Position numbers and translations under genes: made by a program
Notes under the pieces: model-generated
Seen by the model: the letters and a program-made list of their open reading frames with translations, nothing else
What the model was told of the DNA's origin: nothing
Database searches by the model: none
Origin: Anaerolineae bacterium
GTDB taxonomy: Bacteria; Chloroflexota; Anaerolineae; J102
NCBI GenBank assembly: GCA_027002405.1
Contig: JALWZT010000343.1
Span: 1-33,490, forward strand
DNA length: 33,490 nucleotides
Direction of reading: 5' to 3'
In this document: positions 154 to 33,084 of the stretch, piece by piece
Numbering within the stretch: position 1 is the stretch's first letter
How the letters are laid out: every line of letters begins with the position of its first letter

Positions 154-438
154 CTAATACAATTCAAAGAAAGGATAAATAGATTGGAGTCTCTGTAATT
201 CCTGGATGACGTTTTCCGGCTGCGTATGAAGTCGGTTTACGATCATCTGTATGCTGACCCCCCGATCCAACACCTTGTTCCATGTGCCAAAGATTCTATC
301 CGAGGTATTGCCGATTGAATATGCCGTTATCAATACTTCTCTTCGGGCCTGGTCTAACAGTTCGTTAATCGTAGATTCAATTGAACGTCTGCCCGACCCC
401 ATCCAGGCAAGACCTGAGACAATCACTTCCACAGTCAC
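154..438 (-). pseudogene. drmC: DrmC-like phospholipase D family protein, C-terminally truncated
   Basis: This is the last gene of the DISARM-type operon. It starts at a GTG that overlaps the drmB stop codon by 4 nt (GTGA), so it is translationally coupled. The 94 residues match the N-terminal part of the PLD-like DrmC fold: a helix (STINELLDQARREVLITAYSI) and then a strand-rich stretch ending in FFELY. DrmC proteins are normally well over 200 residues and carry an HxKxxxxD (HKD) phosphodiesterase motif. Here a TAG stop occurs before any HKD motif. I read all three minus-strand frames down to position 1 and found no continuation. The gene is therefore cut off, probably by an insertion or deletion near 150. 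In Bacillus DISARM the PLD component is reported to be dispensable, so the rest could still work. Assignment rests on position and weak sequence character. Confidence 0.7.
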
Positions 439-2213: not shown

Positions 2214-2219
2214 AACAGT

Positions 2220-7035: not shown

Positions 7036-8048
7036 CTGGTTCTCTTCCCGGATTCCTGTTCTCCTGCTGATGTAAGCGCCCGAATGATGGCCGTCATCAC
7101 AGGCGGGCACACTGCATTGCCCAGCAGGTGAATTTTCTGTCTCCGATTGCCATGTTCAAGCCTGAATTCAGGCGGAAACCCCATGGCGGTCTGGAGTTCA
7201 GGCGGTTGCAACATGCGCATCATGTGGCCGCCATTGCCATCTGGCTTCACCAGAGCAAACCTGTCCAGAGTGGTGATGGTGCGCAAAGGAGCTTCCAATC
7301 GCTGCCATCCGCCCGAGCCGTCTGAGCCATAATATACCAGCAGAAAGGGCGACTCCTTACCCAGGACCTGGAAAGCTCGCTCCGCCCTTGCCAGCGTCGA
7401 TTTCGCCCGTTTCGGTGTGACCAGAGGCGAGTATCGATAGTGACCGTTCAGATCGACAGCCTGCAACGCGGGGGGTGGTGAAGCGCACAGGGGGTGTATT
7501 TCAGGGGGTTCCTGCTCCCGATCGCAGACTATGTACAGGCGCCTGCGCTTTTGCGGCACATTAAAATCACTGGCTGTCAGAAATTGTTCCCGGCAATGGT
7601 AGCGCAGCGAGATGGAAGCCCGTCGTCGGGGGTGAGTCCCTCGCAGAATCTGCAGAAAGTCCTGATAATAGTCCCACTTCGTCATGGCGACGACATTCTC
7701 GATGACGAGCCATCGAGGCTGAAACACCTCGGCAAACCGCCAGACATTCCAGGACAACCGCAGACTGGCTTTTTCTCTCGCTCGCGCACCGCGAGCCACG
7801 CTGTGACTGGTGCATTCCGGAGACGCCAGAATCAGGTCGATATCACCGATTTCATCTTTAATTTCGCGGATGCGCTGGCGCGAGAGAGAGGCCAGGTCGA
7901 CGGGAAAGAACTTCGCTTCGGGGAAGTTATCCCGATACACCTGGCCAGCCAGCTCCCATTTGTCGAAGCCAGCCACGATCTCGACGCCGGCCGCGCGCGC
8001 CCCCCAGGAGTTGCCGCCGATGCCGGAAAAAAGATCAATGGCTTTCAT
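7032..8048 (-). CDS. drmMII: C5-cytosine DNA methyltransferase, DrmMII-like
   Basis: This 338-residue protein has the full order of C5 methyltransferase motifs: I DLFSGIGG (residues 5-12), IV SPECTSHS with catalytic Cys79, VI IENVV (116-120), VIII QKRRRLYIV (166-174), a short target-recognition region, IX RTITT (about 258) and X GNAVCPPV (about 316). The PEC form of motif IV, rather than PPC, fits DISARM DrmMII proteins as I remember them. It would modify host DNA so that the DrmAB machinery spares it. It lies 19 nt after the 675-residue membrane protein gene and overlaps the glycosylase gene by 4 nt, so both are probably made together. The ribosome binding site is weak. The target sequence cannot be predicted from here. 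Confidence 0.9.
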   Translation of the reverse strand: MKAIDLFSGIGGNSWGARAAGVEIVAGFDKWELAGQVYRDNFPEAKFFPVDLASLSRQRIREIKDEIGDIDLILASPECTSHSVARGARAREKASLRLSWNVWRFAEVFQPRWLVIENVVAMTKWDYYQDFLQILRGTHPRRRASISLRYHCREQFLTASDFNVPQKRRRLYIVCDREQEPPEIHPLCASPPPALQAVDLNGHYRYSPLVTPKRAKSTLARAERAFQVLGKESPFLLVYYGSDGSGGWQRLEAPLRTITTLDRFALVKPDGNGGHMMRMLQPPELQTAMGFPPEFRLEHGNRRQKIHLLGNAVCPPVMTAIIRALTSAGEQESGKRTR

Positions 8049-8067
8049 GATGAAGGCTTAAATCTGT

Positions 8068-10095: not shown

Positions 10096-10124
10096 GATAG
10101 ATACTCCTGAAAGTTGTGGCCAAA

Positions 10125-12947: not shown

Positions 12948-12952
12948 GGACT

Positions 12953-15900
12953 TTACTCCTCCCGGAGAAACTCGCGGATAAGATTTTTCGCATTCCAGGG
13001 GTCTTTGATTTCCAGGAACGCCCAGCGGCCAAAACCGCCATGGTTGTTGATGGCGGGAACCCACAGGTTTCGGGCTGCGGCCACCTTCGCGGCCTTGTCC
13101 GCACGGGCCTGGCCGGAAACTTCGATGATCAGTTGCAGAGGATCATCCTCACCATGACCGTCATCGAGATGGACAATGAAGTCGGGCGTATAACGTTTCT
13201 CCCTCCCTTCAAAGGTGTAGGGAATGGTGAACCCGAGGTTATGGTTTTTGACGTAACGCAGCACTTCTGGCATTTCCTCCAGAGCCTGCGCCATCTTTTG
13301 CTCCCATGAGCCGGTGTCAGCCACCACATGCGAGACATGACATTTGGTTTGATCGGTGCGCCACACCGGGCGGGTGGTGTTGAAATCCACATGCCGGGTG
13401 CTGCCGATGGGATCATACGGCTGCAACCGCGGCAGCAGGCGAGGCGTTCCGCTTTCTGATTGCGCAATGGCCTGATAGATCTTCTCCGCCGCCCGATCTT
13501 TGAGCTGCCCGATCAACAGCATCTGAACAAAGGCGTTATCTTTGATGATGAGCTGCTTTTGGCGCCACGTCCGGACGATGTTCAACAGATCGGGGAACAA
13601 CCAGGGACGGATGGCGCCGCCGTCATCCTGAAAATAGCGTTCCAGCAGGCGCTTCGCCAGCTCAAATTCCACTTCCTGCACCCGTCGCATACGCAAATCA
13701 TAAAGCGTGTGCTCCGCAGTCTCGCCCACGATGGGAGCTGTCTCCACGCGGGTGGGGATGTCAAGCGTGGAGAGGGGCATCTCTGAATCTGGCGTGAATT
13801 TCGCGGTCAGCCGCTCAGGCGGAAGCTCGTAGCGATAGCCTGCCACCCGTGGGAAGGTGATCTCACAGGCGATGCGCGATTCCAGCGCCCGCACCCGCGT
13901 GGGGCGGCGGGGCGGCGGCGCGGGCTTGGGCGCTTCCCGGGTGGGGATGAAGGAAAATGGCACGCCGTACACCTCGGCATATTCCACTGGAAAGGCCTCG
14001 ATGGTGACGGGCTCGCCCTCCACCTCGACAGTAAGGGGTTGCGTTTCGTAACTGATGCGGCGCAATCCCCTGCCCACCACCTGCTCGCACAGCAGTTGCG
14101 TGCCAAAAGCCCGCACTCCCAGGATATGGGTGACGGTGTTGGCGTCCCAACCCTCAGTCAGCATGGAGACGGAGACCACGCATTTGATGCTCTCTCCCAG
14201 CCTGCCAGGTTTGCCCACCGTGTTCATCACCTCGCGCAGCAGGTCTTCGTCGGTGAGTTTTTCAGGATCGCGGCCAGGGAATCGTTGTCGGAATTCCTCC
14301 TTGAAGCGAGCGATCTCGGCCGCCGCAGCCTTTTTGAAATCACTGCTCATGCCCTCGCCCGATTCCAACTGGCGACTGTCCACCAGAATCGTCACAGGCT
14401 TTGGGCTCCAGCGATTGCCGCCAGCGCTGGATATCACATTGCTGAACAGGGGAAGTTTTCCTGGCACGAGCACGGTCCTGCCATCGGGCAATGTCTTTTC
14501 CCAGCCAGCGATGTAATCGTAAATCATCTTCGAAACATTGGTGTTATTGGCCACCACGATGAACACGGGCGGGGGCATGTCAGGTTCGGCCTGCTTTTCC
14601 CATACTTCATGGTATTTACGGTAATTGTTGTAGAGACTGTGCAGTGCGCTCTCCAGTTTGCCCGGAAGTCGGGGCTCCCGGCTGACGTCCTCAGCCTTTC
14701 GGCCCTTTTTGGGCAGTTCGTCCTTGATGTGGGGCCACAGATGTCGATAGATGGGATAATCTCCCAGCATGGAGTTATCATCGATGGGAACCCGCGGCAC
14801 CTTCACCAGACCTGATTCGATGGCGTCCAGCAGGGAGAAGTCCGACACCACCCAGGGGAACAGCGTGCCCTCGCGATAACCAGACCCTCTCAGGAAAAAC
14901 GGTGTGGCCGAAAGATCGTACACCACACGGATGCCGATCTTCTTCTTCACGGCCTCCAGACCCGATATCCACACCCGGGCCTCTTTTTCATGCTCCTTCA
15001 CTTCATCCCGCTCATCCTTGCTCAGACCGGTCTTCGTCGCCTCTGGTTTATGTCGGTAGCAATGATGGGCCTCGTCATTGATGACAATGATATTCTTTTT
15101 GTTGCCCAAACCGCGGCACACGCGACGCACCATCTGGTCTGCCGTTTCGGTAAAGGGGCTGGTCTTATCGTTTCCCAGGAGCTCCTTCGCCAGCTTTGAG
15201 GTTTTCACGCGCTCTCGCAGTTGAAAGGCGTGATAGTTGGTGATGACAATTCGGGCCTGATTCAACTCTGACATGCGATCCGGGGGCAGCAGATCAAACA
15301 CCCGATAGTAGTTGTCCGGATCGGCTGGCAGCAACACTCGCAGACGGTCTTTGATGGTGATACCGGGCGTGACGATGAGAAAGGCGTCACCAAACCGATT
15401 ATCCTGCGGATTGGCCCGCTTGTTGAGCACATGCCAGACAATGATCATGGCCATCACAACAGTCTTGCCTGTCCCCGTCGCCATCTTGAAAGCCATCCGA
15501 AACAAATCGGGATTGGCTTCCCGGTTTCCCTCGCGCAATTGCTCGCGTATCCAGCCATCATTCACCTTGTGCGCCACCTCGGTCAGATAAATGACCGTTT
15601 CCAGCGCCTCAATCTGAGCAAAAAACAAACGTTTTTCCCGATCTTCTCTCTGCCAGTATTCCAGCAATCCCCGCGTGGTGCGGGTTACGCCCATATAATT
15701 CCCCTGCCGCCAGAACGACACCCGTTCTCGAATCTGATTGATGAGCTGATTCTCTTCCAGCCTGTCCGCAGTCCACTCCTCAAATTCGATGGAGAGTTGC
15801 TGCGCCTTCTTTTTCTTCGGCCCGGGAATGGGAACGAAATAGGCGCTTTTACGTCGCCGCGGCACAATGATGCTGGTAATCCCTTCGTCTGTGAACTTGA

Positions 15901-15964
15901 AATGCCGCTTGGGCTCCTCGAACGGCGAATTGATGACGGGATTGCTGATTGTATCGTTACTCAT
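12953..15964 (-). CDS. Type III restriction Res-like helicase/nuclease (BPTD_3080-like)
   Basis: First gene of the defence operon, 1003 residues. Superfamily 2 helicase motifs are visible: MATGTGKT (about 166-173), INDEAHH (DEAH box, about 299), DLSATPFF (about 356), TEGWD and EQVVGRGLRR (about 625-660). The C-terminus carries a PD-(D/E)XK-type nuclease: YTPDFIVHL followed by LIIEVSGQ, then a conserved tail (WVPAINNHGGFGRWAF) that I associate with the BPTD_3080 family of restriction endonucleases. At the position of the active-site lysine (E-x-K) there is Ser (EVS), so cleavage activity is uncertain. It occupies the place of DrmD, but its motifs are of Res type rather than SNF2 type. It should act with the methyltransferase gene that starts 5 nt after its stop. 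Confidence 0.88.
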   Translation of the reverse strand: MSNDTISNPVINSPFEEPKRHFKFTDEGITSIIVPRRRKSAYFVPIPGPKKKKAQQLSIEFEEWTADRLEENQLINQIRERVSFWRQGNYMGVTRTTRGLLEYWQREDREKRLFFAQIEALETVIYLTEVAHKVNDGWIREQLREGNREANPDLFRMAFKMATGTGKTVVMAMIIVWHVLNKRANPQDNRFGDAFLIVTPGITIKDRLRVLLPADPDNYYRVFDLLPPDRMSELNQARIVITNYHAFQLRERVKTSKLAKELLGNDKTSPFTETADQMVRRVCRGLGNKKNIIVINDEAHHCYRHKPEATKTGLSKDERDEVKEHEKEARVWISGLEAVKKKIGIRVVYDLSATPFFLRGSGYREGTLFPWVVSDFSLLDAIESGLVKVPRVPIDDNSMLGDYPIYRHLWPHIKDELPKKGRKAEDVSREPRLPGKLESALHSLYNNYRKYHEVWEKQAEPDMPPPVFIVVANNTNVSKMIYDYIAGWEKTLPDGRTVLVPGKLPLFSNVISSAGGNRWSPKPVTILVDSRQLESGEGMSSDFKKAAAAEIARFKEEFRQRFPGRDPEKLTDEDLLREVMNTVGKPGRLGESIKCVVSVSMLTEGWDANTVTHILGVRAFGTQLLCEQVVGRGLRRISYETQPLTVEVEGEPVTIEAFPVEYAEVYGVPFSFIPTREAPKPAPPPRRPTRVRALESRIACEITFPRVAGYRYELPPERLTAKFTPDSEMPLSTLDIPTRVETAPIVGETAEHTLYDLRMRRVQEVEFELAKRLLERYFQDDGGAIRPWLFPDLLNIVRTWRQKQLIIKDNAFVQMLLIGQLKDRAAEKIYQAIAQSESGTPRLLPRLQPYDPIGSTRHVDFNTTRPVWRTDQTKCHVSHVVADTGSWEQKMAQALEEMPEVLRYVKNHNLGFTIPYTFEGREKRYTPDFIVHLDDGHGEDDPLQLIIEVSGQARADKAAKVAAARNLWVPAINNHGGFGRWAFLEIKDPWNAKNLIREFLREE

Positions 15965-19690: not shown

Positions 19691-20587
19691 TTACTCCACC
19701 CGCTCCATACGACCGGCTAGATCTTCCAATCGCGGTTCGGTATACACCAGGATTGTGTTCAAATTGCTATGCCCGAGCAGCGCAGCCAGGCCCCGCAGGT
19801 CGCCCGGATTCGCAGCCAGGTAGCGGGTGGCGAAGGTATGACGCAGTACGTGCGGGCCAAAGGGTTTAACGCCCGCACGACGGGCATATTTGGCCAGCAT
19901 CCGGTTCACGGCACTGCGATCGGTCAGCGGCCCGCGCTGGCCCCACCACAGGGAAGCGTTGGGATCACCGGCCTGGGGATGCACCTCCAGCCAGACGGCC
20001 AGGGCCTGGCGCACGGACGCGGTCAGGGGCACGGTGCGATAGCCGCGATGCTTGCCGCGGCGAATCACCACCTGGCCCGAGCGCTCGCCCAGGGTCGCGT
20101 CCCCCACCCTCAAGGCCAGCAATTCGCCCACCCGCAGGCCCGCGCCGACCAGCAATGCCACCATCGCGATATCGCGAAGGTTGCCGCCCGCGTCCACGTC
20201 CCGCAGGAAGCGACGCAGGTCGCGATCGGTCAGGCTCTTGGGCTGGCGGGCCTCGGGCCGGATGCCGGAGACGCCCGCGGCGGGGTTGCCCGCGAGGAGG
20301 CCCTGCCCGCTGGCCCAGGCCAGGAAGCGGGAGAGCGCGGTCAGACGCTGGTTGATGGTGGCGGGCCTGGCTTTCTCGGAGGTCTGCTGGTGCGCCTGCC
20401 AGTCCGCAATGTCGCGGGGCAGCAGCTCGTCCAGTTGAGGCAGGGCGTCGTAGGTGGCCTCATACCAGCGGGCGAAATGGGCCAGGGCGCGGTGGTAGGC
20501 GGCACGGGTGTGCGGGCTTTTGCCCTGGGCTTCCAGGTGGGCCAGCCACTGATTTTGGGCGGTGATGGAGTCGGTTTCGGCGGTCAT
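19691..20587 (-). CDS. Xer-type tyrosine recombinase
   Basis: The 298-residue protein has the two-domain plan of XerC/XerD-like enzymes. The N-terminal SAM-like domain spans about residues 10-100. The catalytic residues are visible in order: R in GAGLRVGEL, K in RRGKHRG, H and R in HVLRHTFATRY, H in LLGHSNLNT and the nucleophile Y in LVYTEP. Start: ATG 20587 (MTAETD); the ORF track start at 20692 would run through the recombination-like sites described below and is less likely. It is very GC-rich. It is convergent with the toxin gene. It could be the recombinase of an integrated element or a single-recombinase Xer system; the dif-like site just upstream supports a self-contained unit. Confidence 0.88.
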   Translation of the reverse strand: MTAETDSITAQNQWLAHLEAQGKSPHTRAAYHRALAHFARWYEATYDALPQLDELLPRDIADWQAHQQTSEKARPATINQRLTALSRFLAWASGQGLLAGNPAAGVSGIRPEARQPKSLTDRDLRRFLRDVDAGGNLRDIAMVALLVGAGLRVGELLALRVGDATLGERSGQVVIRRGKHRGYRTVPLTASVRQALAVWLEVHPQAGDPNASLWWGQRGPLTDRSAVNRMLAKYARRAGVKPFGPHVLRHTFATRYLAANPGDLRGLAALLGHSNLNTILVYTEPRLEDLAGRMERVE

Positions 20588-20592
20588 CACGA

Positions 20593-20612
20593 TTATGTTG
20601 CCACTTTTTCGG
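20593..20612 (+). repeat. Direct repeat of the dif-like half-site
   Basis: TTATGTTGCCACTTTTTCGG (20593-20612) matches TTATGTTGCTACTTTATGG (20701-20719) closely. The two are 108 bp apart, one directly before the recombinase start codon and one inside the dif-like site. They may both bind the recombinase, for control of its own gene or for excision. Confidence 0.45.
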
Positions 20613-20683
20613 GCGTTATCGGTTGAGAACGGGTGGGTTTCAGGACATTTCGACGCCCCAAGTATAGCATTTTCTGCAATCGT

Positions 20684-20711
20684 GCGCCACATAATACACG
20701 TTATGTTGCTA
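20684..20711. other. dif-like recombination site next to recombinase gene
   Basis: GCGCCACATAA-TACACG-TTATGTTGCTA has the 11-6-11 layout of XerC/XerD binding sites. The inner halves ACATAA and TTATGT are exact inverses. The right half shares TTATGTT with the E. coli dif XerD arm. It sits about 100 bp upstream of the recombinase gene, as with XerS/difSL and XerH/difH pairs. Function is inferred from form and position. Confidence 0.5.
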
Positions 20712-22008: not shown

Positions 22009-22629
22009 ATGGAAGTCAATCTCCGAACCCTCCTCAAAGAAGTCGCTGTCATCGCCCTGCTGGGCGCGCTGGCCCTGGGCCTGTACGCGTTTATCACCCG
22101 CGAACGAACGTCGCCGCCCGAAACGACAGCAACGCCAATGGCTCCGGCTGCATCCACGCCCGCACCAGTCACCCTGCACGACGACGCCAGCGCCTGGAAC
22201 GCCGAGCTGACCTATCCCGACGCCCTGACCGAGATCATCGATGCTCCCGCCTTCCAGAAGCGCTTCCCCAAGGGCCTGACCGTCACCCTCATCGCCGACG
22301 CCCGCGCGCCCGAAGCCCTGCGCGGCGAGTATGACGATGATCCCTTCGCCCTGCGCTTCGGCGCGGTCTGGCCCGAGCCCCAACCCGGCCAGACCATCAA
22401 GCCCGAGATGGAGGCCTGGGCTGACTGCGTGCGGGATTTCGAGCTCGGCCCCAGCGACGCACTCCGCTGCTATCTCTTCGCCCGCGGCGAACCGGGCGAG
22501 ACCCTCGACCGCCTTGCATCCTCCGCCCTGCACCAGGCCCTGCGCTACGCACTCACCGGCCGCATGATCCCCAATCCATCATGGACGCCCGACGACGCCT
22601 TTCTCTCGCTCTCCCCCTCCTCGCCCTGA
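22009..22629 (+). CDS. Unknown membrane-anchored protein
   Basis: The 206-residue protein starts MEVNLRTLLKE and has one membrane helix (about residues 12-30, VAVIALLGALALGLYAF), then a Pro/Thr/Ala-rich linker and an extracytoplasmic domain. I do not recognise the domain. The start at 21931 in the ORF track would include the intergenic repeat and is rejected. Its 3' end overlaps the next gene by 49 nt in another frame, so the two are likely co-expressed. It belongs to the set of envelope proteins around the HerA-like ATPase and may be a structural part of the same apparatus. Confidence 0.65.
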   Translation: MEVNLRTLLKEVAVIALLGALALGLYAFITRERTSPPETTATPMAPAASTPAPVTLHDDASAWNAELTYPDALTEIIDAPAFQKRFPKGLTVTLIADARAPEALRGEYDDDPFALRFGAVWPEPQPGQTIKPEMEAWADCVRDFELGPSDALRCYLFARGEPGETLDRLASSALHQALRYALTGRMIPNPSWTPDDAFLSLSPSSP

Positions 22630-23549
22630 CCCTGGCCCTGCTCGGGCTTTTCCTCCTGCGCTCGGGCGGGAGCCAGTCCGCCTGCGCCACCGGCAACTGC
22701 CAGGCCTGGTACTGCGACCGGGTCATCGCCGGACAGTGCTACCAGCGCAACGGCGACGGCAGCTACTCCCCCACCAACCCCGTGGGCTGCGTGGGCAACT
22801 GCTCCGGCGGCTCGGGCGAGTGCAGCTTGGGCACCTGTCCTTCTGGCAAGGGATACAAGTGCTGCGCCCAGTCAGGCCAAGGGGGCTGCGGGCCGATCCT
22901 GATGGGCGTGCGCGGCTCCGACTGCTGCGGGGGCAACGGCGAACGCACGCCGCAGCCCACAGCCACGCCCACCCCGCCCGCGTGCAGCGGCACGCGCGTA
23001 AACGTCACCAAACCGAGGGGCAGCTATGAGCAAGAGCCCAAGCACGTCATCGTGGTGGGGCAAGATCCCTCGGTGCGGGGCTTCACGCTGAAGCTGGATT
23101 TGCACGGCGGCCGGGCCGAGAAGTGGGAGCTGGAATCGAAGCAGATCTGCACCCGCGTCGTGGGCGCCTATCCCGACGACTGTCCCTCCGGCCCCTGGCG
23201 CTGGACCTGCGCATGGACCCGCATCGAGCGCCACAACGACCCCATCGTCAAGGTGGAGATCGCCATGCGGCTGCACGAGTCCACCATCGCCTGGATCGAT
23301 GGGGATCTGGCGGCCCGGTATCCGGGCGTGCATCGCACCGAGCCGTTGCCCAAGGTGTTCACCGTGTGGCAGGGCCGGGCCATGCGGGTGCGGGAGGACT
23401 GGCATTACCTGCCCTCGGATCCGGGCGTGCATGGCGGGCGCATCCTCATCACCACCGCGGGCACGGCCATCAATCCGCCGCAGCACGTGAGCATCCCCTT
23501 CGAGGTGAAGGTGTACCTGAAGGACACGACGCTGTGGGAAGGGGAGTGA
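22581..23549 (+). CDS. Unknown secreted cysteine-rich protein
   Basis: The 322-residue protein begins with a signal or anchor sequence (about residues 5-27, LSLALPLLALTLALLGLFLL). Next is a cysteine-dense segment (about 34-120, more than a dozen Cys with CC pairs) that probably forms disulfides outside the cell. A PTATPTPP linker leads to a roughly 190-residue beta-rich domain. The TPTP-type linker is common in Chloroflexota secreted proteins. It overlaps the preceding gene. No family is recognised. Confidence 0.65.
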   Translation: MDARRRLSLALPLLALTLALLGLFLLRSGGSQSACATGNCQAWYCDRVIAGQCYQRNGDGSYSPTNPVGCVGNCSGGSGECSLGTCPSGKGYKCCAQSGQGGCGPILMGVRGSDCCGGNGERTPQPTATPTPPACSGTRVNVTKPRGSYEQEPKHVIVVGQDPSVRGFTLKLDLHGGRAEKWELESKQICTRVVGAYPDDCPSGPWRWTCAWTRIERHNDPIVKVEIAMRLHESTIAWIDGDLAARYPGVHRTEPLPKVFTVWQGRAMRVREDWHYLPSDPGVHGGRILITTAGTAINPPQHVSIPFEVKVYLKDTTLWEGE

Positions 23550-23774
23550 GGGTTATACAAAATTATCCCACAAAAATGGGAGTTTCATTCTCGGGTTTGG
23601 AAGAAACTATTGGTGAACAGTGATTGAGAAAATTCTCTTGGGTGAGTTTGTCAACTAAGGTATTATGATCTAGAATTTCACATATAAACTGCAAAAGTTG
23701 TGACCAAACATTCGCGTTAGAGATTGTTTGGAAATATCCCTCATCTACCGTCTGTTGCTGGTGACCTGAAAATT

Positions 23775-24425
23775 ATGAAAAACCCTGCAAACGTAGAATA
23801 TGTGTCGCAATTTTTATTGGCTGAGTTTAATTCCCTTCAAGATAGGGCTCGCGCTTACGAAGAAATTAAATCAAGTCGTGTCAATTTTTTCTTACTGATT
23901 GTCGCTGCATTTGGTGCCGTTTTTTCAACAATTCTAGACATTTCGTTCATGGCTAGTTTTGTTTATGAGGCATTAGCTATAACTGCATTGATCATTTTCC
24001 TTCTGGGAATAGCAACACTTAAAACTCTAATTGACTATTCCGTAGCAATCGTGATTTTTTATAGAAAAGCAGGACGAATCAGAAAATGGTTTGTCAACTT
24101 AGACTCCGAAATTGAAAAATACATTGCTTTTGATGCTACTGATGAAAAACCAAGATTTATAGTAAGAAAGGGATTGATACATTGGCGTGGTGGTGAACTA
24201 ATACTATTACTTATAAACTGTTTCTCTGCTTCTCTTTTTGCTGTTATGAGCATTTCCTACATTTTTTATATTCCCATCATAATTCAGTTATGTCTTTGGG
24301 TTATCGCTGTTGTGTTGTTTTGGAATATTCAGGTATCTTATATTAAAAGAAAGATGATAAATGCGGAAAATTCAAATTGGTCCCAAAGAGAAAGTCACTT
24401 CAGGATCATCGAGTTCACAAAATAG
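23775..24425 (+). CDS. Unknown four-helix membrane protein, paralogue of the 32416 gene
   Basis: The 216-residue protein has two membrane segments (about 37-55 and 63-85), a soluble loop with IFYRKAGRIRKWFV and EKYIAF.ATDEKP, and two more segments (about 150-190). The gene at 32416 shares this loop almost residue by residue (IYYRRAGRIRQWFV, EKYIPF.VTDERP) and the N-terminal VAQYLVSELE/VSQFLLAEFN motif. The layout recalls small pore-forming effectors such as SLATT proteins, but I cannot confirm that. It is strikingly AT-rich between GC-rich genes, a sign of transfer. ATG 23775 is preferred over the ORF-track start at 23724 because the family match begins after it. The 23550-23774 gap holds nothing I recognise. 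Confidence 0.65.
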   Translation: MKNPANVEYVSQFLLAEFNSLQDRARAYEEIKSSRVNFFLLIVAAFGAVFSTILDISFMASFVYEALAITALIIFLLGIATLKTLIDYSVAIVIFYRKAGRIRKWFVNLDSEIEKYIAFDATDEKPRFIVRKGLIHWRGGELILLLINCFSASLFAVMSISYIFYIPIIIQLCLWVIAVVLFWNIQVSYIKRKMINAENSNWSQRESHFRIIEFTK

Positions 24426-24585: not shown

Positions 24586-24723
24586 GGGCAACCTTCGTCC
24601 TGACATTTGTGGCGAGTTTCGGCTGCGCCAAGCGTAAAACGTCGGGATTGGCTCACAGAGAAATGACGTTTGACGTCTTGACGTTTGACGATCTCCACAA
24701 ACCGCGCCACTTTCAGTTCCCTC

Positions 24724-25311
24724 ATGCTCGACTTTCTCCACACCCTCCTCATCTACGAGGCCAACGGTTTCCTGGCCCTCATGTACGTTTTCTGGGAGCA
24801 TCTGGCTGGCATTTTGGTGCTGGCCAGCTTCAGCTTCTTCACGGCCCGCGCGCCCGCGGGGCAGCGGGCCTGGACCGTCGGCGCGGGGATGCTGGCGCTG
24901 CTGGCCGCGTTCCTGGCTCCCACGCCCGCGCCCTTCTTGCTGGCGGCCATGAGCCTGGCGGGTGTGGCCGCAGTGCTGCTGGACAAATTCAATCCCGACG
25001 CGCTGCGCTGGCGCATCACCGGCGGGCTCACCCTGTACGCGCTGGCGGCCCTGGCCCACCTGGGATATCAGGCCTACCTTGCCGGGGTGGACGCAGCAGC
25101 GTGGGCGCAGGCCATCGGCGGGCAGGGGGAGGCGTCCGCGGCGCTGGCCCAGGGCCGGGCCTTTGTGGAAACCCTGGCCACCTGGGGCCTGTGGCTGATC
25201 CTGCCGCTGGGATATTTCTCCCTCCTGGCCCAGGTGCTGCTGGCGCATCCGCCGTTGAGCGCCAGGCCCGATGAGATCATCACGGCGGTGCGGACGCGGG
25301 AGAAACATTAG
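24724..25311 (+). CDS. Unknown polytopic membrane protein
   Basis: The 195-residue protein has four or five hydrophobic segments (residues about 13-38, 48-65, 66-82, 97-115 and 155-178) with short loops. It ends 95 nt before the HerA/VirB4-like ATPase gene, same strand. By size and position it could be the membrane channel component for that ATPase, comparable in role to VirB6 or TrbL proteins, but no sequence signature supports that. The start ATG 24724 is the first Met of the hydrophobic protein; the earlier start at 24685 would add a non-conserved stretch. Confidence 0.65.
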   Translation: MLDFLHTLLIYEANGFLALMYVFWEHLAGILVLASFSFFTARAPAGQRAWTVGAGMLALLAAFLAPTPAPFLLAAMSLAGVAAVLLDKFNPDALRWRITGGLTLYALAALAHLGYQAYLAGVDAAAWAQAIGGQGEASAALAQGRAFVETLATWGLWLILPLGYFSLLAQVLLAHPPLSARPDEIITAVRTREKH

Positions 25312-25406: not shown

Positions 25407-28400
25407 ATGCAAACCACGCCCGAATTCACCATCCTCGATGACGCCCTCACCTTCCATGATGGTGTGTTCGCACACGCGCTGTTTCTGCTGGATGATCATC
25501 GCACCGGCCAGCGGGTGTACCGGGCGGTGATGCTGAAGGAGCTGGCCTACGTGCCCATCGAGGCGCGGGAGAATCCTGACGTGCTGGGCAAGCAGTGGAT
25601 GGCGGTGCGGGGCCTGTACAACGCGGCCGTCGATTTCTCCTACGTGGCCTTGGGCGCGTTCCAGCCGACACCCCTGGGCGTGGCCCAGTTCTATGGCGCC
25701 CAGGCCGAGGCCCACACGGAAGCCGCGGCCCTGCGAGAGGCGGCCCGGCGCATGGACGCGGTCACGGGGGTGCTCGCCAACTTCCCCCACTCCCGGCTAC
25801 GGGACCCCGACATCGAGCGGGTGCAGCTCCTGCTGGAGCGGATGCGCTCGTTGCCCCACATCCTGGCCATCCTGGGGCATCCCGACCCGCGGCAGGCGGA
25901 GAAGGGCATGGGGCGAGACGGCAGCCTGGGCGCGCAGGATGAGGAGCTGGCCAGCCAGCAGGGGGAGATGCTGCTGCGGGGCCTGGCCAAGCTGCGAAGC
26001 GATTTCGTGTTCGCGGTGACCGCGGCCCACATCGCCCGCGGGGATTTGTCCAAAGCGCTGGTGAAGATGGCGCGGGTGGCGAGCCAGGTGGCCTCGCGGC
26101 AGCGGGGCGCGATCAACGCGGCCTTCTCCATGGCCATTCCCCTGGCCGCGGCGCTCTCCAACAGTTATGCTGCGCAGCACAGCCAATCCCACGGGCTGGC
26201 GCACTCCCACGCGGATGGCGTGAGCGAGGGCTGGGGCGCGGGGGAGAGCCGCAGTTGGGGGCACAGCGTGTCCCACGGGGAGACGCGGGGCGAGGCGGTT
26301 ACCGAGAGCGTGGCCGTGACCGATGGCGTGGCCCATTCGCAGATGCACGGGATCAGCCACGGGGTGGCGGACAGCTCGACGTGGGGGCATACGGATTCGA
26401 CCGCGCACACCAGCAGTCACGGGCATTCTGTATCCCAGAGCCAGGGGACGAGCTGGAGCCAGGCACACACCGAGGGCGTGGCGCACGGGACGAGTCATAC
26501 GTCGGGCACCAGCCACAGCGTGTCGGATGGCACGTCCACCAACTGGTCACAGGGACACACCACGGGCACGAGTCAGAGCACGTCGCACACCAGCGGCTCC
26601 AGCTGGAGCACGGGCCAGAGCTCGGGGGTGTCGGGTAGCGAATCGTCGGGCTGGAGCCAGAGCGCCAGCGCCGGGCAGTCGGGGAGCGTGAGCCAGGGCA
26701 GCAACTGGAGCGCGTCCCACAGCCAAAACGTCTCCGCGGGCTACGGCGTGGCCCAGAGCGAGAGCGTGGGCGTGAACCAGTCCGCGTCCGCCAGCGTGAG
26801 CCAATCCGCGGCCCACACGGACACGGCGTCGAATACGCTGGGAGCCAACGCCAATGTGGGGGCCAGCGTCTCGGGCAACCTGTCCACCGGCGCCATCCCC
26901 GGCGGCAATCTCGGCGGGGGCCTGGAGACGGGCGTGGGCGTGTCGGGCAGCCACAGTTGGGGCAGTGCGGACTCCACGGCCAGTAGCGCCTCGCAGAGCG
27001 CAGGCATCGCCGTGAGCCAGGGCGCGGCCGCATCCCAAAGCGCCAGCGTGGGGGTGAGCGAAGGAACGTCCCAATCGGTGGGAGGCAGCGCTTCCACGAC
27101 CAGTGGCTGGAGCGCGTCCCAGAGCGCGGGCGTATCGGGGAGTCAGAGCAGCGGCTGGAACCAGGGAGTGAGCAGCTCGCAAGGGGGCTTTTCCAGCGAT
27201 TCTCACAGCAGCGGCTCTTTCTCAAGTCAGTCGAGTTCGGTGGGAGGAGGCACCTCCCACGTGGTCAGCAACGGCTCTTTCAACTCCACCTCGAACAGCA
27301 CGGTGCATTCCTCCTCGGACACGACCTCGCACGGCGGGTTTGCCTCCACCACCCGCGGGGAGAGCTGGGGAACCGCGGATACCGTAGGCAGTGCCGACAG
27401 CATTGGCGGCGGACACACGGTGTCCTCGGGAACCAGCCAGGCCTGGGGCGTGACCCGATCCCATTCGGTGACCCGCGGCCAGGCGCACACCGTCTCGCGG
27501 GCGGAGAGCATCGGCGAGAGTTTCTCGGAGGGACGGGCCGTGACTCGCTCGCACCAGACCGCCCGCTCCCACAGCGAGGGGCAGGCCGCGAGCCGGGCCA
27601 TCGCCCTGGGCGGAGGTCGAGCCTTCATGGGCGGGCTCTCCGCAGGCATCATCCCCGGCTTCTCGGTGGGGCGCTCCTGGCAGACCGAGGATCACGTGGC
27701 CATGCGCCTGACCGAGATCGTCAACGGATTGCAGAGTCTTTTGAATCATGCCACCGCGGAGGGGGGCTTTCTCACCAGCGCCATGCTCCTGGTGGACGCG
27801 AAGGGCGCGGCCGCGGCCGAATCCCTGGTGCCCCAGGCCTTTCACGGCCCCAACGCGCCCACGCCCGTGATGACGGTGATGGCGGGGGAGGTCCTGCGGC
27901 CCCACGTCCTGGCCCTGCGCCCTTCCCTGGACCGGGCCGCGTCCGCCCCCTTCGACGTGGGCCTGTGGACGCGCTGGGGCACGTTGCACACGCCGGAGAT
28001 GGTGGCGGCCCTGACCGCGCCCAATCTCTTCGAGGAGGGCTTGGCCGTGACCGTTCAGGAGCGCATCCCCGCCGGCCTCGCCTTCTATCCCGACGCCTCG
28101 GGCGACGTGACGCTGGGGCATCAGGTCTCGCCCGAGACAGGCGACCTCACCGCCGTGCCCCTGAAACTGAGCCGGGAGCGGCATTTCCACACCGCGTTCA
28201 TCGGCGACACCGGCTACGGCAAGTCGGTGGCCGCGGTGCGCCTGGCCCTGGAGACCACCGTCAAATGGAAGATGCGCACCCTGGTGCTCGATTTCGGCGC
28301 AGGCTGGCGACAATTGCTGAATGCGCCTGGCCTGGATGGGCGGGTGGATATCCGCCAGCTTTCGCCGGGCGGGGTGCGGCCCCTGCGCTGGAATCCCTTG

Positions 28401-29459
28401 CAGATCGGGCGGCACATCCTGCCCGAGGTGCAGTGGCGCGCGTTCTGCGATATCTTCGGCGCGGTGGCGCGGCTGGGTGTGCGGCGACAGGTGGCGGAGC
28501 TGCGGGAGGCCCTGCGTCGCGTCTATCTGGCCGCAGGCGTGCTGGTGGATGACCCGGAGTTGCCGGGCGAGTGGGCGGTGGTGCGAAAGGGCGAAGGCGC
28601 GACCGTGGGCGTTCCCCTGGCCGATCTCCCGCCCGATGAGCGCCAGCGCATCGCGGTGCAGCGGTCGAAGACCGTGGGCCTGGCCGAGCTGTATGCCGAA
28701 ATCGAGAACAAACTCAGTCTGATTCCGCCGCGGGACACGATGCTGCGGGGCGTACTGGAGGGCATCCTGTTTCGACTGCATCCCCTGGTGCAGGGCGCAG
28801 CCGCCAGGCAGTATGCCGCAGGCCCGGATGCGGTGGATATCAATGAGGTGGCGCCGGGCGGTTGGGGCGTGGCTATTTTGGAGGGCGGCGCGTTCCTGGA
28901 CGAGTTCTCCAAGGCGTTTCTGCTGGGCTGGACCGCCTGGCATATCTACAACGACGCGGTGGTGCAGCGCATGCGGCGGGCGCGATCGGAGCCTGCGCAC
29001 ATCCAGATCGTGTTCGAGGAGGCCAACAAGATTTTGTCGGGCGTGGACGCGGGCGAGGAGGAGGGCGGGGCCGCGTCCACCGCGGAGCAGTTCGCGGCCA
29101 TGTGGCGGGACTCCCGCAAGTATGGCATCTGGCTGCATCTCATCACGCAGTCGCCCTCGCTGATCCCGCCCGGCATCCTGTCGTCGTGCAACAATGTGTT
29201 TGCGGGCCAGGTCAAGAACCGGCGGGACCAGGACGTGGTCATCGGCATGCTGCACAAGTCGCCGGTGGGCTTCACGGATGAGGTGTGGCGGCGGTTCCTG
29301 GCGTCGCTGCCCGTGGCCCGATCTGTGGTCAAGCTGGGCTACGCCTTCGACCGGGCGCTGCTGGAGCCGGTCTACGTGCAGCCCCTCATCGTGCGGGCGC
29401 GGGAGCCGGATGATGAGGAGATCGTGGAGAGATTGGGACGCGGAGGGAGTGTTCAGTGA
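25407..29459 (+). CDS. HerA/VirB4-type ATPase with giant Ser/Gly/His-rich repetitive segment
   Basis: The 1350-residue protein has three parts. Residues 1-250 form a helical N-terminal domain. Residues about 252-735 are a low-complexity stretch of Ser, Gly, His, Ala and Gln with short repeats of the type SHSxGxSxS, His-rich first and Ala-rich later. Residues about 760-1350 form a HerA/VirB4/FtsK-like motor: Walker A GDTGYGKS (about 932), a LVLDFGAG strand, Walker B IVFEEA (about 1199), then a sensor region (YGIWLHLITQSPS) as in conjugation ATPases. It is likely a hexameric pump for DNA or protein at the membrane. The surrounding membrane and secreted proteins support this. The ATG lies right after the ATCTGCG repeat with no clear ribosome binding site. 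The repetitive insert is far longer than anything in ordinary VirB4. Confidence 0.82.
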   Translation: MQTTPEFTILDDALTFHDGVFAHALFLLDDHRTGQRVYRAVMLKELAYVPIEARENPDVLGKQWMAVRGLYNAAVDFSYVALGAFQPTPLGVAQFYGAQAEAHTEAAALREAARRMDAVTGVLANFPHSRLRDPDIERVQLLLERMRSLPHILAILGHPDPRQAEKGMGRDGSLGAQDEELASQQGEMLLRGLAKLRSDFVFAVTAAHIARGDLSKALVKMARVASQVASRQRGAINAAFSMAIPLAAALSNSYAAQHSQSHGLAHSHADGVSEGWGAGESRSWGHSVSHGETRGEAVTESVAVTDGVAHSQMHGISHGVADSSTWGHTDSTAHTSSHGHSVSQSQGTSWSQAHTEGVAHGTSHTSGTSHSVSDGTSTNWSQGHTTGTSQSTSHTSGSSWSTGQSSGVSGSESSGWSQSASAGQSGSVSQGSNWSASHSQNVSAGYGVAQSESVGVNQSASASVSQSAAHTDTASNTLGANANVGASVSGNLSTGAIPGGNLGGGLETGVGVSGSHSWGSADSTASSASQSAGIAVSQGAAASQSASVGVSEGTSQSVGGSASTTSGWSASQSAGVSGSQSSGWNQGVSSSQGGFSSDSHSSGSFSSQSSSVGGGTSHVVSNGSFNSTSNSTVHSSSDTTSHGGFASTTRGESWGTADTVGSADSIGGGHTVSSGTSQAWGVTRSHSVTRGQAHTVSRAESIGESFSEGRAVTRSHQTARSHSEGQAASRAIALGGGRAFMGGLSAGIIPGFSVGRSWQTEDHVAMRLTEIVNGLQSLLNHATAEGGFLTSAMLLVDAKGAAAAESLVPQAFHGPNAPTPVMTVMAGEVLRPHVLALRPSLDRAASAPFDVGLWTRWGTLHTPEMVAALTAPNLFEEGLAVTVQERIPAGLAFYPDASGDVTLGHQVSPETGDLTAVPLKLSRERHFHTAFIGDTGYGKSVAAVRLALETTVKWKMRTLVLDFGAGWRQLLNAPGLDGRVDIRQLSPGGVRPLRWNPLQIGRHILPEVQWRAFCDIFGAVARLGVRRQVAELREALRRVYLAAGVLVDDPELPGEWAVVRKGEGATVGVPLADLPPDERQRIAVQRSKTVGLAELYAEIENKLSLIPPRDTMLRGVLEGILFRLHPLVQGAAARQYAAGPDAVDINEVAPGGWGVAILEGGAFLDEFSKAFLLGWTAWHIYNDAVVQRMRRARSEPAHIQIVFEEANKILSGVDAGEEEGGAASTAEQFAAMWRDSRKYGIWLHLITQSPSLIPPGILSSCNNVFAGQVKNRRDQDVVIGMLHKSPVGFTDEVWRRFLASLPVARSVVKLGYAFDRALLEPVYVQPLIVRAREPDDEEIVERLGRGGSVQ

Positions 29460-29547: not shown

Positions 29548-30123
29548 ATGAAACCCAGGCATTTTCTACCCCTCACCCTTTTCATCATCGCCGTGACGTT
29601 GATGGCCGCAATCGCTCTTCGCCACGCGCCCATGCCCGCGCTGCCCGTCATCGCCCAAACGACGCCGCTGCCCACTGTTACGCCTACCGCTACCCCAACG
29701 CCTGGCTGGTGGGATGAGGCCGATTTCGCCACGCCGACGCTGCCGACGCTGCCGGGCGTGAAGAAGCCTGCCTTCTCGGGCGGCGTGGGCGGGCAGGAGC
29801 CGGGTCAGCCTGTGCCCTTTACGACGCTCTCCTGCCCCACCGCGGGCGCGAAGATCACCGAGATTCGCACCGCGGGCGGGCCGTGGTGGCATATCTTCGG
29901 CGTGGCCGATATCCCGGAGCTGTGGTATTGGAAGGCGGAGGCGTCGGTGGATGGGGAGCACTGGGCCATGCTCTATCGGAGCGAGCGGGCGGCCTCGGGC
30001 CTGCTGCTGCGCCTGAACCTGACGACTGTGCCGGGCGGGCCACTGCTCCTCCGCCTGACAGCGGTGGACCGGACGGGGAATTATCCCGGGCCGTGTGTGG
30101 TGCGGGCAGAAAATAAAAGTTGA
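29548..30123 (+). CDS. Unknown secreted protein
   Basis: The 191-residue protein has a signal peptide or anchor (residues about 6-25, FLPLTLFIIAVTLMAAIAL), a PLPTVTPTATPTPGWW linker (about 41-56) and a compact beta-rich domain, about 90-185, with two cysteines (C95 and C183, approximate) that may bond. It follows the ATPase gene by 88 nt and shares the linker style with the 22581 protein. It is probably an envelope component of the same apparatus. No family is recognised. Confidence 0.65.
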   Translation: MKPRHFLPLTLFIIAVTLMAAIALRHAPMPALPVIAQTTPLPTVTPTATPTPGWWDEADFATPTLPTLPGVKKPAFSGGVGGQEPGQPVPFTTLSCPTAGAKITEIRTAGGPWWHIFGVADIPELWYWKAEASVDGEHWAMLYRSERAASGLLLRLNLTTVPGGPLLLRLTAVDRTGNYPGPCVVRAENKS

Positions 30124-30507
30124 TTACGTGGCAATCTTCGTGAGGGTTTCCTGAGGATAGGACGTTCAATCATCTAAATGCGGTTATTGCCCAAATTTCG
30201 AGAGAAGTCACCACACCGGGGCTGGTTGTCCGGTTTGAGGCCAAGGTGATAAACTGAGGTTTGGGCGGCGAAATTGGCGCATGGTCTGGCAAATCGGCAA
30301 TCGGTCGGGACCACTTGTCGGCAGACAGGCGCTCAGCTCCCACTACATTTTTACAATTTACCCACCAACGTGCTATTTCTCGCGCGGGGCCGTGGCTCGG
30401 ACGTTTTGCGCATTCATTGCCAACACTGCACTCTGGCAGGACTGACTACCCCTTGCCTGTCAAGCAGCGCGGCTTCGGCTTCGAAAATTAGACGAAAGAG
30501 AGACATT
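30124..30507. other. Intergenic stretch without a supported gene
   Basis: An ORF reads through part of it, but it has no credible start or conserved character. The end holds GCGCGGCTTCGGCTTCG, a small GC-rich hairpin-prone stretch, and GAAAGAGAG as ribosome binding site for the next gene. I see no promoter consensus. Confidence 0.5.
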
Positions 30508-31434
30508 TTGAAACAGCGTGATTATAGCAAGCAATCGAAAAAACTTCTGTTTACCACCTTCAACTGCGCAAAATCGCAACTAATTCCGTTGCAAACCATG
30601 CAGGAAATGCGTAATGACGATTTGATCATGGCATTGACTGGTCTTGCCGGCGGTATTTTGAATAATGGTTCAACCTGCGGTGTTGTGATTGGTGGCGCGA
30701 TTAGTTCCGCTATGATCAGGGACAAAGAATTGGGCGGTCAGTGGACGCTCGAAGATGAAATTCAACTCCTGGATGAGATCAGGAGGGATGTCACCTGGTT
30801 TGAGGATCGCTTTGGCACTTCGTTATGCCGTGAAAGAGCAGGACTCAATTATGAAAGAATCACGGTGCTTGGATTGCTTAATCCCCGAAAGGCCAAGGGA
30901 TGCGTTGCCCGGGCCGGGGCGAACATGACCTATTTCGTAGAAAAATATGAGAATGCAGAGCAAGCCAGGGACAATCTCCCCATGCACGAATTTCACAAGC
31001 ACCCAGCGGAAGCCGCCGAACATTGCGCCCCCAAAATACTCAGGGAGATCCGAGATAAAACCGGAATTGGCAACGACTCACTGGAACAAATCTCTGTCGC
31101 TTTGGATGGTGGCCTGGGATTATCCGGAGGCGGATGCGGCGCTCTTTCAGGGGCGCTTATGGCGCTGGGTCTCAAGTATGCTCTGGATCCCCAAAAAACA
31201 GACCCCCGCAAACTGAGAAATATCTACAGAGCGATGGATTCCGAGTTCTTCAGGATGGCCAAAATCCTGGTCAGTGCGTTTATCGAAGAATTCGAGTATA
31301 TTGAGTGTTCGAGGATTACGGCCCGAAAATTCAACGACTGGGGTGAATTCAGTAAATTCAGAAATACATCCTCCTGTGATGCAATCAATCAATTCCTCGT
31401 CGATAAAACGGTTGAGATTATCAATGACCGGTAA
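30508..31434 (+). CDS. Tandem C_GCxxG_C_C family redox protein
   Basis: The 308-residue protein looks like two copies of the C_GCxxG_C_C domain (PF09719, putative redox-active). First copy: [25 protein letters not shown] and GCVARAG. Second copy: [33 protein letters not shown] and SSCDAI. Single-domain members of about 150 residues are the norm, so this is a duplication. The family is thought to use the cysteines for metal or disulfide chemistry; it is often found in anaerobes. The TTG start at 30508 (LKQRDYSK in the ORF track) has GAAAGAGAG upstream and is preferred over the long upstream extension. Its 3' end overlaps the integrase remnant on the other strand by 14 nt. Confidence 0.72.
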
Positions 31435-31765: not shown

Positions 31766-32271
31766 ACAAACCTTCGAAAAAGGTAAAAATGCCTTGCTGC
31801 TTTAAATGCAACACTTATCATATCAGGGAATGCCCCAAAGAAACATCAACTGAATAGCTCGCACTTCTTCAGCCGTCGAGAATTTCTTCATCATGACCTT
31901 GAAGCCATGTCTACTGGATGTTCCTACTTACCTGCCAAAAATTGTACAGAATTTGAACGTAGCGTAAATATGTTCCTAGTTATCCTAGATCTCAAGTGTC
32001 CAATCCACGGCAGGGGATGAGTCCATCCGGCGAAGTCATAATTTCCTAGTAGGGGTTCACGCTCCATAGTTAAGAGCTGATCAACTTATTGAAGGTCGAA
32101 ATCAATCTGATTGACGGGCGAGTTGTGCAGGCGGGCCGGGCGTTGTAGAATGGAATGAACGATGACGATGATCCGCAGCTGTGAGCGGCGTCCTCTCGGG
32201 TGGCGGGCGTGACCAGTCTGCCGGCCTTTCCAGCATCTTTCTTCACCCCACCATCATCATCCAACCCCGGC
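31766..32271. other. Intergenic stretch between integrase remnant and attC-like site
   Basis: This stretch of about 500 bp has no ORF of credible length. Several stops occur in all frames. I see no strong promoter and no clear attI. It probably is eroded sequence between the lost 5' part of the integrase gene and the first cassette. Confidence 0.5.
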
Positions 32272-32401
32272 GGCGCTAACATTTGCGTGCAGGGGATAGG
32301 CTCCCGCCCGCGGTTCCAGCCCGCGCCTGCGGGTACTGCCACGACTCGGGCCTCGATCCTTGGCCGGAAGTGCCGTCTGCGCCTGACGCGGGCCGTTAAG
32401 T
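32272..32401 (+). other. attC-like cassette recombination site
   Basis: From the outside in, GCTAAC pairs with GTTAAGT over the essential AAC/GTT. Unpaired spacers follow (ATTT on the left, GGGCC on the right). Then GCGT-G-CAGG (32285-32293) pairs with CCTG-ACGC (32382-32389), leaving one extrahelical G. This is the R box, spacer and L box plan of integron attC sites. GTTAAGT fits GTTRRRY; CGCTAAC deviates in the first base from RYYYAAC. The inner part can form further GC-rich stems. A ribosome binding site and ATG follow within 20 nt, as at the start of a cassette. Confidence 0.5.
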
Positions 32402-32415
32402 GCGAGGAATCGACT

Positions 32416-33084
32416 ATGACTCAAAGATTACAAGACAACGAACTGAGCAGAGAAGTTGTTGCCCAATACCTGGTATCAGAATTAGAAATGTTACATCAAC
32501 GCGCTGAAGCGAGTGAGCAGTTTGTCGCAAACAAAACTAACTTTTTTGTTGCGCTTACTACAGCAATCGTTGGTGGATTATTATTTCTTTTCAAAGAACA
32601 CGCCGATGAAAGCACGACCATCTTAGTTGTTGTCTTTGCATTGGGCTTTCTGCTGGTCATGGGATGGGTGGTGTTCAAGCAAAGTGTAGATATGGTAGCA
32701 TCTGCTGCTATTTATTACCGTAGAGCAGGCCGGATTCGGCAATGGTTTGTAGATAATGCTCCTACCGTAGAGAAATATATACCTTTTACCGTTACAGATG
32801 AAAGACCACCTCTATACGTGCCCCATGCTCCACTGCGGGATTTCAATACCATAGTGGCGAGTTTGAACGCTGGTTTGGTATCAATTTTGGCGGGATATCT
32901 GTTTTTTATTTCATCACAAACGAGACTTTCCCCAATTTCACGGACAAGGCTAGTTGTGGTGCTTGCGGGAAGTTTATTCGTGATAATGTTTTATGTACAA
33001 TTCAGGATTTATAAGAATCATTTAATGGCAAAGGAAAAAAGCGAAAAAGAACAAGGGAAGGTGCATTTCCCGCGCCCGAACTAG
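32416..33084 (+). CDS. Unknown four-helix membrane protein, cassette-like, paralogue of the 23775 gene
   Basis: The 222-residue protein has membrane segments near residues 45-60, 70-90, 153-170 and 181-200, and the loop motif IYYRRAGRIRQWFVDN with EKYIPFTVTDERPP, shared with the 23775 protein. The start ATG 32416 has GAGGA upstream and lies right behind the attC-like site; the ORF track start at 32200 runs through that site and is rejected. The stop is followed after 13 nt by GCCTAAC, which fits the attC opening consensus, so the gene looks like an integron cassette. AT-rich relative to the ATPase region. Function unknown; membrane effector of a defence system is one possibility. Confidence 0.68.
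   Translation: MTQRLQDNELSREVVAQYLVSELEMLHQRAEASEQFVANKTNFFVALTTAIVGGLLFLFKEHADESTTILVVVFALGFLLVMGWVVFKQSVDMVASAAIYYRRAGRIRQWFVDNAPTVEKYIPFTVTDERPPLYVPHAPLRDFNTIVASLNAGLVSILAGYLFFISSQTRLSPISRTRLVVVLAGSLFVIMFYVQFRIYKNHLMAKEKSEKEQGKVHFPRPN

Follow-up and report, generated by a model that had tools for sequence, protein, structure and literature searches.

A serine-rich HerA-type ATPase with a giant insert

The window analysed here is a stretch of 33,490 nucleotides from an Anaerolineae bacterium (Chloroflexota; GenBank assembly GCA_027002405.1, contig JALWZT010000343.1). It contains a gene, here called F0 (25407..29459, + strand), which encodes a serine-rich HerA-type ATPase of the NCBIfam family NF033849 in a single open frame of 1350 residues, without stop or frame loss. 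The protein starts with an N-terminal domain conserved in the family (residues 1–235, 25407..26111; 39% mean column identity in the family alignment, no solved relative) and ends with a HerA-type P-loop NTPase motor module (residues 757–1350, 27675..29456; 45% mean column identity in the family), identified by profile matches to HerA hexamers in the PDB. The motor contains a Walker A motif GDTGYGKS (residues 933–940, 28203..28226), a Walker B region IVFEEANK (residues 1201–1208, 29007..29030) and the RKYG...LITQS motif of the HerA/FtsK superfamily (residues 1237–1249, 29115..29153). Between the N-terminal domain and the motor lies an insert of about 490–505 residues (roughly residues 245–750), which we predict to be a giant beta-hairpin.

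The insert is rich in small residues (27% S, 15–16% G and 11% A over residues ~244–736, with 6% H and neither K nor C), and is built as a strict X-[S/G/A/T] dipeptide repeat that keeps one register over 240 dipeptides, without a slip. The small-face ("inner") position is S, G, A or T in 220 of these 240 dipeptides, while the other face is made up of V, H, Q, A, T, S, E, W, D and R. Compared with composition shuffles, the S/G alternation scores positively at even lags (z about +6 to +10) and negatively at odd lags (z −6 to −8), with a phase that is coherent to at least lag 40.

Two other origins of the insert were considered and rejected. A DNA-level tandem repeat is not supported, as Tandem Repeats Finder detected only one 46-bp array within the F0 gene, and the Ser codons of the insert come from both families (61 TCN and 71 AGY). 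The ratio of non-synonymous to synonymous substitution rates (dN/dS) is 0.15–0.43 in the insert, indicative of purifying selection (0.12–0.19 in the N-terminal domain); together with the use of both Ser codon families, this points to selection on the protein and not to a DNA repeat. The same dN/dS values, and the presence of the insert in independent relatives, argue against an assembly artefact. Inserts of about 150–580 residues occur at the same position in every full-length homologue examined, and no homologue lacking one at this locus was found among them. A first-pass annotation of this DNA had described a HerA-type motor from which the N-terminal domain is separated by a huge insert without frame loss, and this description is borne out by the open frame and the PDB profile matches. 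Its estimate of about 480 residues was slightly low, and the repeats that it listed (SHSxGxS and WSxSxS) are indeed present, as local forms of the X-[S/G/A/T] dipeptide pattern.

Sequence evidence for a probable giant beta-hairpin

Based on register, central phase slips, equal arm lengths, mirror indels and cross-arm covariation, it is highly probable that the insert of F0 forms one antiparallel beta-hairpin, each arm of which would have about 250 residues and measure ~80 nm (0.33 nm per residue). The predicted base strand of arm 1 (residues 236–250, INAAFSMAIPLAAAL; 26112..26156) has hydrophobic residues at alternate positions and is followed by arm 1 itself (residues 251–488, 26157..26870), defined by the strict dipeptide register and by cross-arm covariation. 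The tip or turn is placed at residues 489–504 (26871..26918), centred on residue 496, on the basis of the centre of the register, the position of phase slips in homologues (0.46–0.54 of the insert) and a hydrophobic maximum. Arm 2, the putative antiparallel partner of arm 1 (residues 505–743, 26919..27635), is supported by arm lengths, indels and covariation, and is followed by a base strand with alternating hydrophobic residues around the conserved Pro 750 (residues 744–756, 27636..27674).

Phase slips were located with a two-state phase model, the emissions of which were taken from the insert of the window; the homologues compared in this and the following statistics are related to one another. 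Among the first 21 homologues, ten had no slip and eight had exactly one, located at 0.47–0.54 of the insert. In 20 further homologues, fetched after the prediction had been recorded, all ten single-slip cases were at 0.46–0.54; when one relative below the family cut-off and three sequences almost the same as an earlier member are set aside, six independent cases remain, at 0.50–0.51. Members with two slips (G531 and G667) have them near-symmetrically about the centre of the insert. The lengths of the two arms as measured from the slip are strongly correlated (r=0.984, n=15), even though total length varies more than twofold, and arm length ranges from 80 to 297 residues across members; among the short ones are the Pontibacillus protein (~80 per arm) and that of G113 (~109). 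Insert indels are almost all of even length (30 even versus 4 odd, eight pairs compared), and compensating indels were found at mirror positions: 36 residues fewer at 0.13–0.14 and again at 0.86 in the window compared to G011, and 10 residues more at both 0.20 and 0.83 in G045 compared to G213.

The arms also covary, as was seen when residue pairs were counted at cross-arm offsets relative to the two conserved prolines. At offset −3, Gly:Gly pairs are strongly depleted (15 observed versus 118 expected, ratio 0.13), whereas the ratio is at least 0.86 at all other 101 odd offsets between −101 and 101. The depletion extends over all depths, up to 290 residues, and is seen in almost every protein (0 versus 9.2 in the window). 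At this register, residues i and 992−i of F0 (1-based) would face each other. Gly faces Ser across the arms and Ala faces Thr (270 A:T pairs versus 15 A:A and 43 T:T), while acidic residues face His (185 versus 57 ± 14, z 9.4) and also Arg, and like charges are avoided. Overall, cross-arm charge pairing amounted to 89, compared to −23 ± 12 in block permutations, and was abolished, not exceeding 20 in any of 500 trials, when arm 2 was swapped in from a different homologue, indicating coupling within each protein and not shared composition. Acid:base pairing was also observed at offset −5, with 14 opposite pairs (counting His as basic) and zero like pairs in the window; this could be either a diagonal contact of a twisted ladder or a contact between subunits.

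At both strand bases, hydrophobic residues occupy every second position and the opposite face is almost never hydrophobic. Around the conserved Pro 245 of arm 1, for instance, the hydrophobic fraction in the family is 0.75–1.00 at positions −7 to +1 of one parity and 0.00–0.03 at the other. Flanking transmembrane helices were rejected as an explanation, as hydropathy is only 1.3–1.8 and inconsistent between members; the alternating pattern points to beta strands instead. Hydrophobicity of the outer face is maximal at 0.4–0.6 of the insert in 26 of 32 homologues, compared to a mean of 8.4 and a maximum of 16 under the null. As a sequence pattern, the insert has the alternating hairpin with hydrophobic outer belt that marks beta-barrel pore formers.

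Charged and His residues are enriched toward both bases of the insert and depleted at its centre throughout the family, in a mirror-symmetric way, so that the monotonic grade from His-rich to Ala-rich in the first-pass annotation is not supported. Smoothed mirror symmetry is weak for single residues (r 0.0–0.16), and clearer for charged residues and His combined (0.35). The "flexible or fibrous arm" of that annotation fits the data as to fibrous, but not as to flexible, since the covariation between the arms is that of a fixed, antiparallel beta ladder. Metal binding, for which it had suggested a test, is not needed to explain the His residues of the insert, to which the opposite arm tends to present acidic residues. 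A sister clade without the S/G face (G530, G596 and G686) has its charge complementarity peak at the single offset +3 (39 opposite versus 12 like pairs, the top of 161 offsets), suggesting that the hairpin may be older than the S/G code.

Family membership and motor class

F0 matches the NCBIfam model NF033849 (ser_rich_anae_1, "serine-rich protein") with 1136 bits against a cut-off of 650. This is the same family, the model spanning the serine-rich region and the motor; its name states neither function nor structure, and the hairpin anatomy, the Tad operon and the mobile-element setting described here are absent from the family entry. No paper pairing the accession NF033849 with its name was found in the literature searched. 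The distribution of homologues in Chloroflexota is scattered, with 10 of 400 genomes positive in a draw from the phylum and 38 of 396 in a draw from the class, and homologues also occur on three Bacillota megaplasmids; no relatives were found in viral and phage collections. The sister clade scores below the family cut-off.

The best PDB matches of the motor profile are HerA proteins, which are hexamers (E-values up to 5.6e-16), and not VirB4. DUF87/HerA Pfam matches were obtained in 7 of 19 homologues, and F0 itself combines the P-loop, an acidic Walker B, the RKYG/ITQ motifs and the HerA profile match of the HerA/FtsK superfamily. Scores were far below the cut-offs of more specific models, i.e. 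16 bits for the archaeal repair-type HerA NF040819 (cut-off 970) and 35 bits for an antiphage HerA model (cut-off 800). The joint HerA/VirB4 label first given to the motor can therefore be kept for its HerA half only: VirB4 membership was rejected on sequence profiles, as no VirB4 (CagE/TrbE/VirB) Pfam match was found in F0 or the 19 homologues, where the same scan gave weak AAA_10/TraG matches. No solved structure was matched by the N-terminal domain or the insert. Because HerA-type motors are hexamers, F0 may by analogy form a hexameric DNA-moving ring.

Gene neighbourhood

F0 is preceded in the window by two conserved operon members on the same strand. These are F2, a secreted protein of 322 residues (22581..23549), and, directly upstream of F0, F6, a multi-pass membrane protein of 208 residues (24685..25311), which its profile detects here and in most of the loci where upstream sequence is available. 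Directly downstream lies a gene for a 191-residue protein with an N-terminal hydrophobic, signal-like segment (29548..30123, +), also present 3' of F0 in a sister genome (87.6% DNA identity over 611 bp to locus L069). The recurrent gene order is F2 – F6 – F0 – CpaB – TadZ – CpaF – TadB – TadC. Tad genes adjoin F0 in 30 of 42 loci, and seven others end at contig edges. On two clostridial megaplasmids F0 is followed by TadZ-CpaF-TadB/C. Flp-type pilins were found in three loci (G161a, G161b and G058) and are annotated in Alkaliphilus; they were not found in the other loci. No conserved effector/immunity pair was seen beside F0.

In the genome of the window, F2, F6 and F0 are on contig C343, and CpaB and TadZ of the matching kind on contig C350. 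The CpaB protein is 93% identical to that of the sister genome, where it comes after F0, so either the operon itself or the assembly is split between the contigs. A CpaF of the F0-operon type was not found in this genome, the sole match being a CpaF of 34% identity on contig C56, beside other pilus genes. The first-pass term "conjugation ATPase" remains presumptive: the neighbours are Tad pilus genes, some of them on mobile elements or plasmids, and not a VirB/D4 type IV secretion system (T4SS).

Other features of the window include a gene for a 233-residue protein between F2 and F6 (23724–24425, +), with a G+C content of ~37% in a region of 65–70% and no family match, which is perhaps a recent insertion. 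A 65-bp segment upstream of F6 (24626–24690) has an 88% match to L069 3738–3801 upstream of CpaB in the sister genome, and is perhaps a shared promoter-like element. The locus is followed by genes for a C_GCAxxG_C_C redox protein with two matched stretches (30274–31434, +) and an 8xMP-family membrane protein (32200–33084, +). At the other end of the window, a 592-residue MrfA Zn-binding-domain protein adjoins a 1383-residue helicase-C protein (435–6371, −).

Mobile elements

The window encodes a tyrosine recombinase (Pfam Phage_integrase; 19691..20692, −) similar to integrases near the homologous loci in G161a, G161b, G113, G045 and G213 (phmmer E-values of 2e-48 to 5e-19), possibly the trace of a mobile element. 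Upstream of it lies a DNA modification/restriction cluster resembling a defence island (7032–15964, −). It comprises a C5 methylase, an N4/N6 methylase and a ResIII helicase whose end is weakly TnsA-like, and is adjoined by an HhH-GPD glycosylase.

Mobility is supported in the complete Chloroflexota genome G045, in which the F0 locus lies inside a 153-kb insertion at a tRNA-Leu gene, between this gene and 65-bp perfect copies of its 3' end at 2156385 and 2175736. In four congeners without F0 (G169, G138, G077 and G104) the same flanks are joined at an intact, empty tRNA-Leu. An integrase, direct repeats at a tRNA gene and an empty site in relatives together mark the G045 insertion, specifically, as an integrative element. 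A second insertion of 19 kb is present in tandem at the same tRNA-Leu repeats (G045:C1:2156385–2175800), and the G045 element carries as cargo a giant RHS-repeat/immunoglobulin-like protein of 3121 residues (L076:1–8093). Near the G213 element no attachment (att) repeats were found. In G161:C1 (L080/L061/L062/L081, concatenated 60954–61395), three direct 41-bp copies, 139 bp apart and including the 3' end of the adjacent tRNA-Arg, form an array of integration-like sites.

Flanking genes of the G045 locus or related loci include those for integrase, ParA, DnaB and a DnaA_N protein, and on pRUMAL01 of Ruminococcus albus 7 the F0 locus adjoins dnaE and ssb. DnaE with RecA-like and IMS polymerase genes was also observed near F0 in G011 and G058 (L050:766–6294, L053, L040). 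No VirD4-type coupling protein was found in the elements; PF02534 matched in 2 of 10 genomes, weakly and away from F0.

Proposed function and alternatives

On balance, we lean toward F0 acting as the HerA-type DNA translocase in a transfer system that is linked to a Tad pilus and located on mobile elements, with the insert as a hairpin pointing away from the motor. The motor family, the operon, the mobility of one element and the pairing and register of the hairpin are all supported from sequence. In the proposed mechanism, six hairpins would project from one hexameric motor ring and, packing together by their small S/G/A/T faces, would build a single elongated beta fibre, or a tube, in line with the motor axis. 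Membrane contacts would be made by the hydrophobic strands at base and tip, the alternating pattern favouring such contact at both ends. The Tad pilus would draw cells together, and DNA would be driven out by the motor, either along the hairpin assembly or through it. Beyond the components themselves, we infer both the transfer of DNA and the arrangement of the hairpins as a tube or as rods. RcpC, a CpaB relative, forms a 12-mer with C6 overall symmetry and a ~5-nm pore (PMC12307814), which would be compatible with a coaxial arrangement and is not evidence for one. In the most far-reaching version, the six hairpins of one ring would make a single beta-barrel tube of tens of nm, with its base in the donor membrane and its tip in that of the partner, so that the HerA motor would pump DNA through its own extension, in a conjugation machine that combines a Tad pilus with a self-built needle and has no relation to the VirB/D4 T4SS; this we consider rather doubtful.

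Several observations weigh against this proposal. Five loci with downstream room (the window, G734, G738, G596 and Pontibacillus) have no Tad genes nearby, and no clear relaxase or origin of transfer (oriT) was found, only a sub-threshold Replic_Relax match. AlphaFold2 predictions, run on the isolated insert and on the motor together with a single close relative, gave confidence scores (predicted local distance difference test) of 36 and 31, and were uninformative without a usable alignment. The insert of the sister clade is of similar size and polar, but without the S/G code. Finally, the Gly:Ser and Ala:Thr code could equally suit a packed rod without a lumen.

In an alternative reading, the hairpins are solid rods or tethers. 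Face-to-face beta ribbons would span the distance between the motor and either the membrane, the nucleoid or the pilus base, serving as a ruler or clamp that has no lumen and holds no DNA. The rare facing of Gly by Gly and the facing of Ala by Thr represent the volume complementarity expected of tight packing, a range of arm lengths from 80 to 297 residues would be tolerable for a tether, and in the sister clade an insert of similar size shows a charge-complementarity peak and no S/G face. Base strands with alternating hydrophobic residues and a never-hydrophobic small face, on the other hand, resemble a membrane-spanning beta belt, superfluous for a simple tether; we regard rods as possible, albeit somewhat unlikely. 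It is unlikely that F0 instead serves the Tad pilus itself, as its second motor or as a regulator (e.g. a retraction or secretion ATPase), carried because adhesion aids the spread of the element. Pilus genes are its most constant neighbours and the plasmid-borne tad loci of Cutibacterium have been interpreted as adhesins (PMC5696575), but the motor is closest to HerA DNA translocases and the elements are without a VirD4-type DNA motor.

Contact-dependent killing, in which Tad pilus and hairpin assembly would attack neighbouring cells by analogy with the Myxococcus Kil Tad system, appears very improbable, as no conserved effector/immunity pair accompanies F0 and the replication and partition genes suggest a self-moving element. 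This holds despite the large RHS-repeat protein of the G045 element and the capacity of Tad pili to serve in contact-dependent killing (PMC12075869). Least credible of all is a low-complexity disordered linker or an O-glycosylated stalk similar to serine-rich adhesin repeats. There is a weak profile match to the SD-repeat adhesin ClfA, and serine-rich stalks also use alternating Ser. Cross-arm covariation, central slips and mirror indels would, however, be meaningless in a disordered or single-stranded stalk, and F0 lacks the marks of secreted serine-rich repeat adhesins (SRRP/MSCRAMM, with signal peptide and wall anchor), as its N-terminus is without a strongly hydrophobic segment and the protein ends in a motor domain.

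Relation to known systems and implications

The HerA/FtsK translocases, including HerA and TdtA, share with F0 the P-loop motor with Walker A, EE Walker B and RKYG..ITQ motifs, but none of the solved relatives matches its insert. Similarly, F0 has the alternating strands, small polar face and hydrophobic ends of beta-hairpin pore formers. Oligomers of such pore formers make barrels. F0 differs from them in its arms of 80–297 residues and in being part of a motor protein, and the likeness is one of hairpin sequence pattern.

Thermus TdtA, a HerA-like hexamer, is needed for DNA donation and is encoded on ICETh1, a tRNA-inserted element resembling an integrative and conjugative element (PMC5365140); tdtA adjoins a nurA-family gene and not Tad genes. 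The archaeal Ced and Ted systems follow the same logic of a HerA/VirB4-like ATPase, a multi-pass membrane protein and a pilus (PMC9905601); their pilus is T4SS-derived and not Tad, and no hairpin insert has been described. Linear plasmids of Cutibacterium acnes, apparently conjugative, have a Tad/Flp locus beside DNA-translocase genes, with the functional link left open (PMC5696575); their ATPases are described as FtsK/TraB- and VirB4-like.

In the literature searched, the coverage of which excluded subscription papers and preprints, no description of the hairpin, its residue code or the Tad-linked element was found. What is new here is the anatomy of the insert; NF033849 had been named but not characterised, and motor and pilus are of known kinds. 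The cross-strand code, in which Gly pairs with Ser, Ala with Thr and acidic residues with His or Arg, can be read from sequence alone, and could guide the design of long beta ribbons. We know of no precedent or parallel for a beta ladder of two strands that runs uninterrupted for up to ~290 residue pairs and follows such a simple cross-strand code. The combination of a HerA-type motor and a Tad pilus on integrative elements and megaplasmids provides a concrete candidate DNA-transfer machine for Chloroflexota and Clostridia, in elements without a VirD4-type match.

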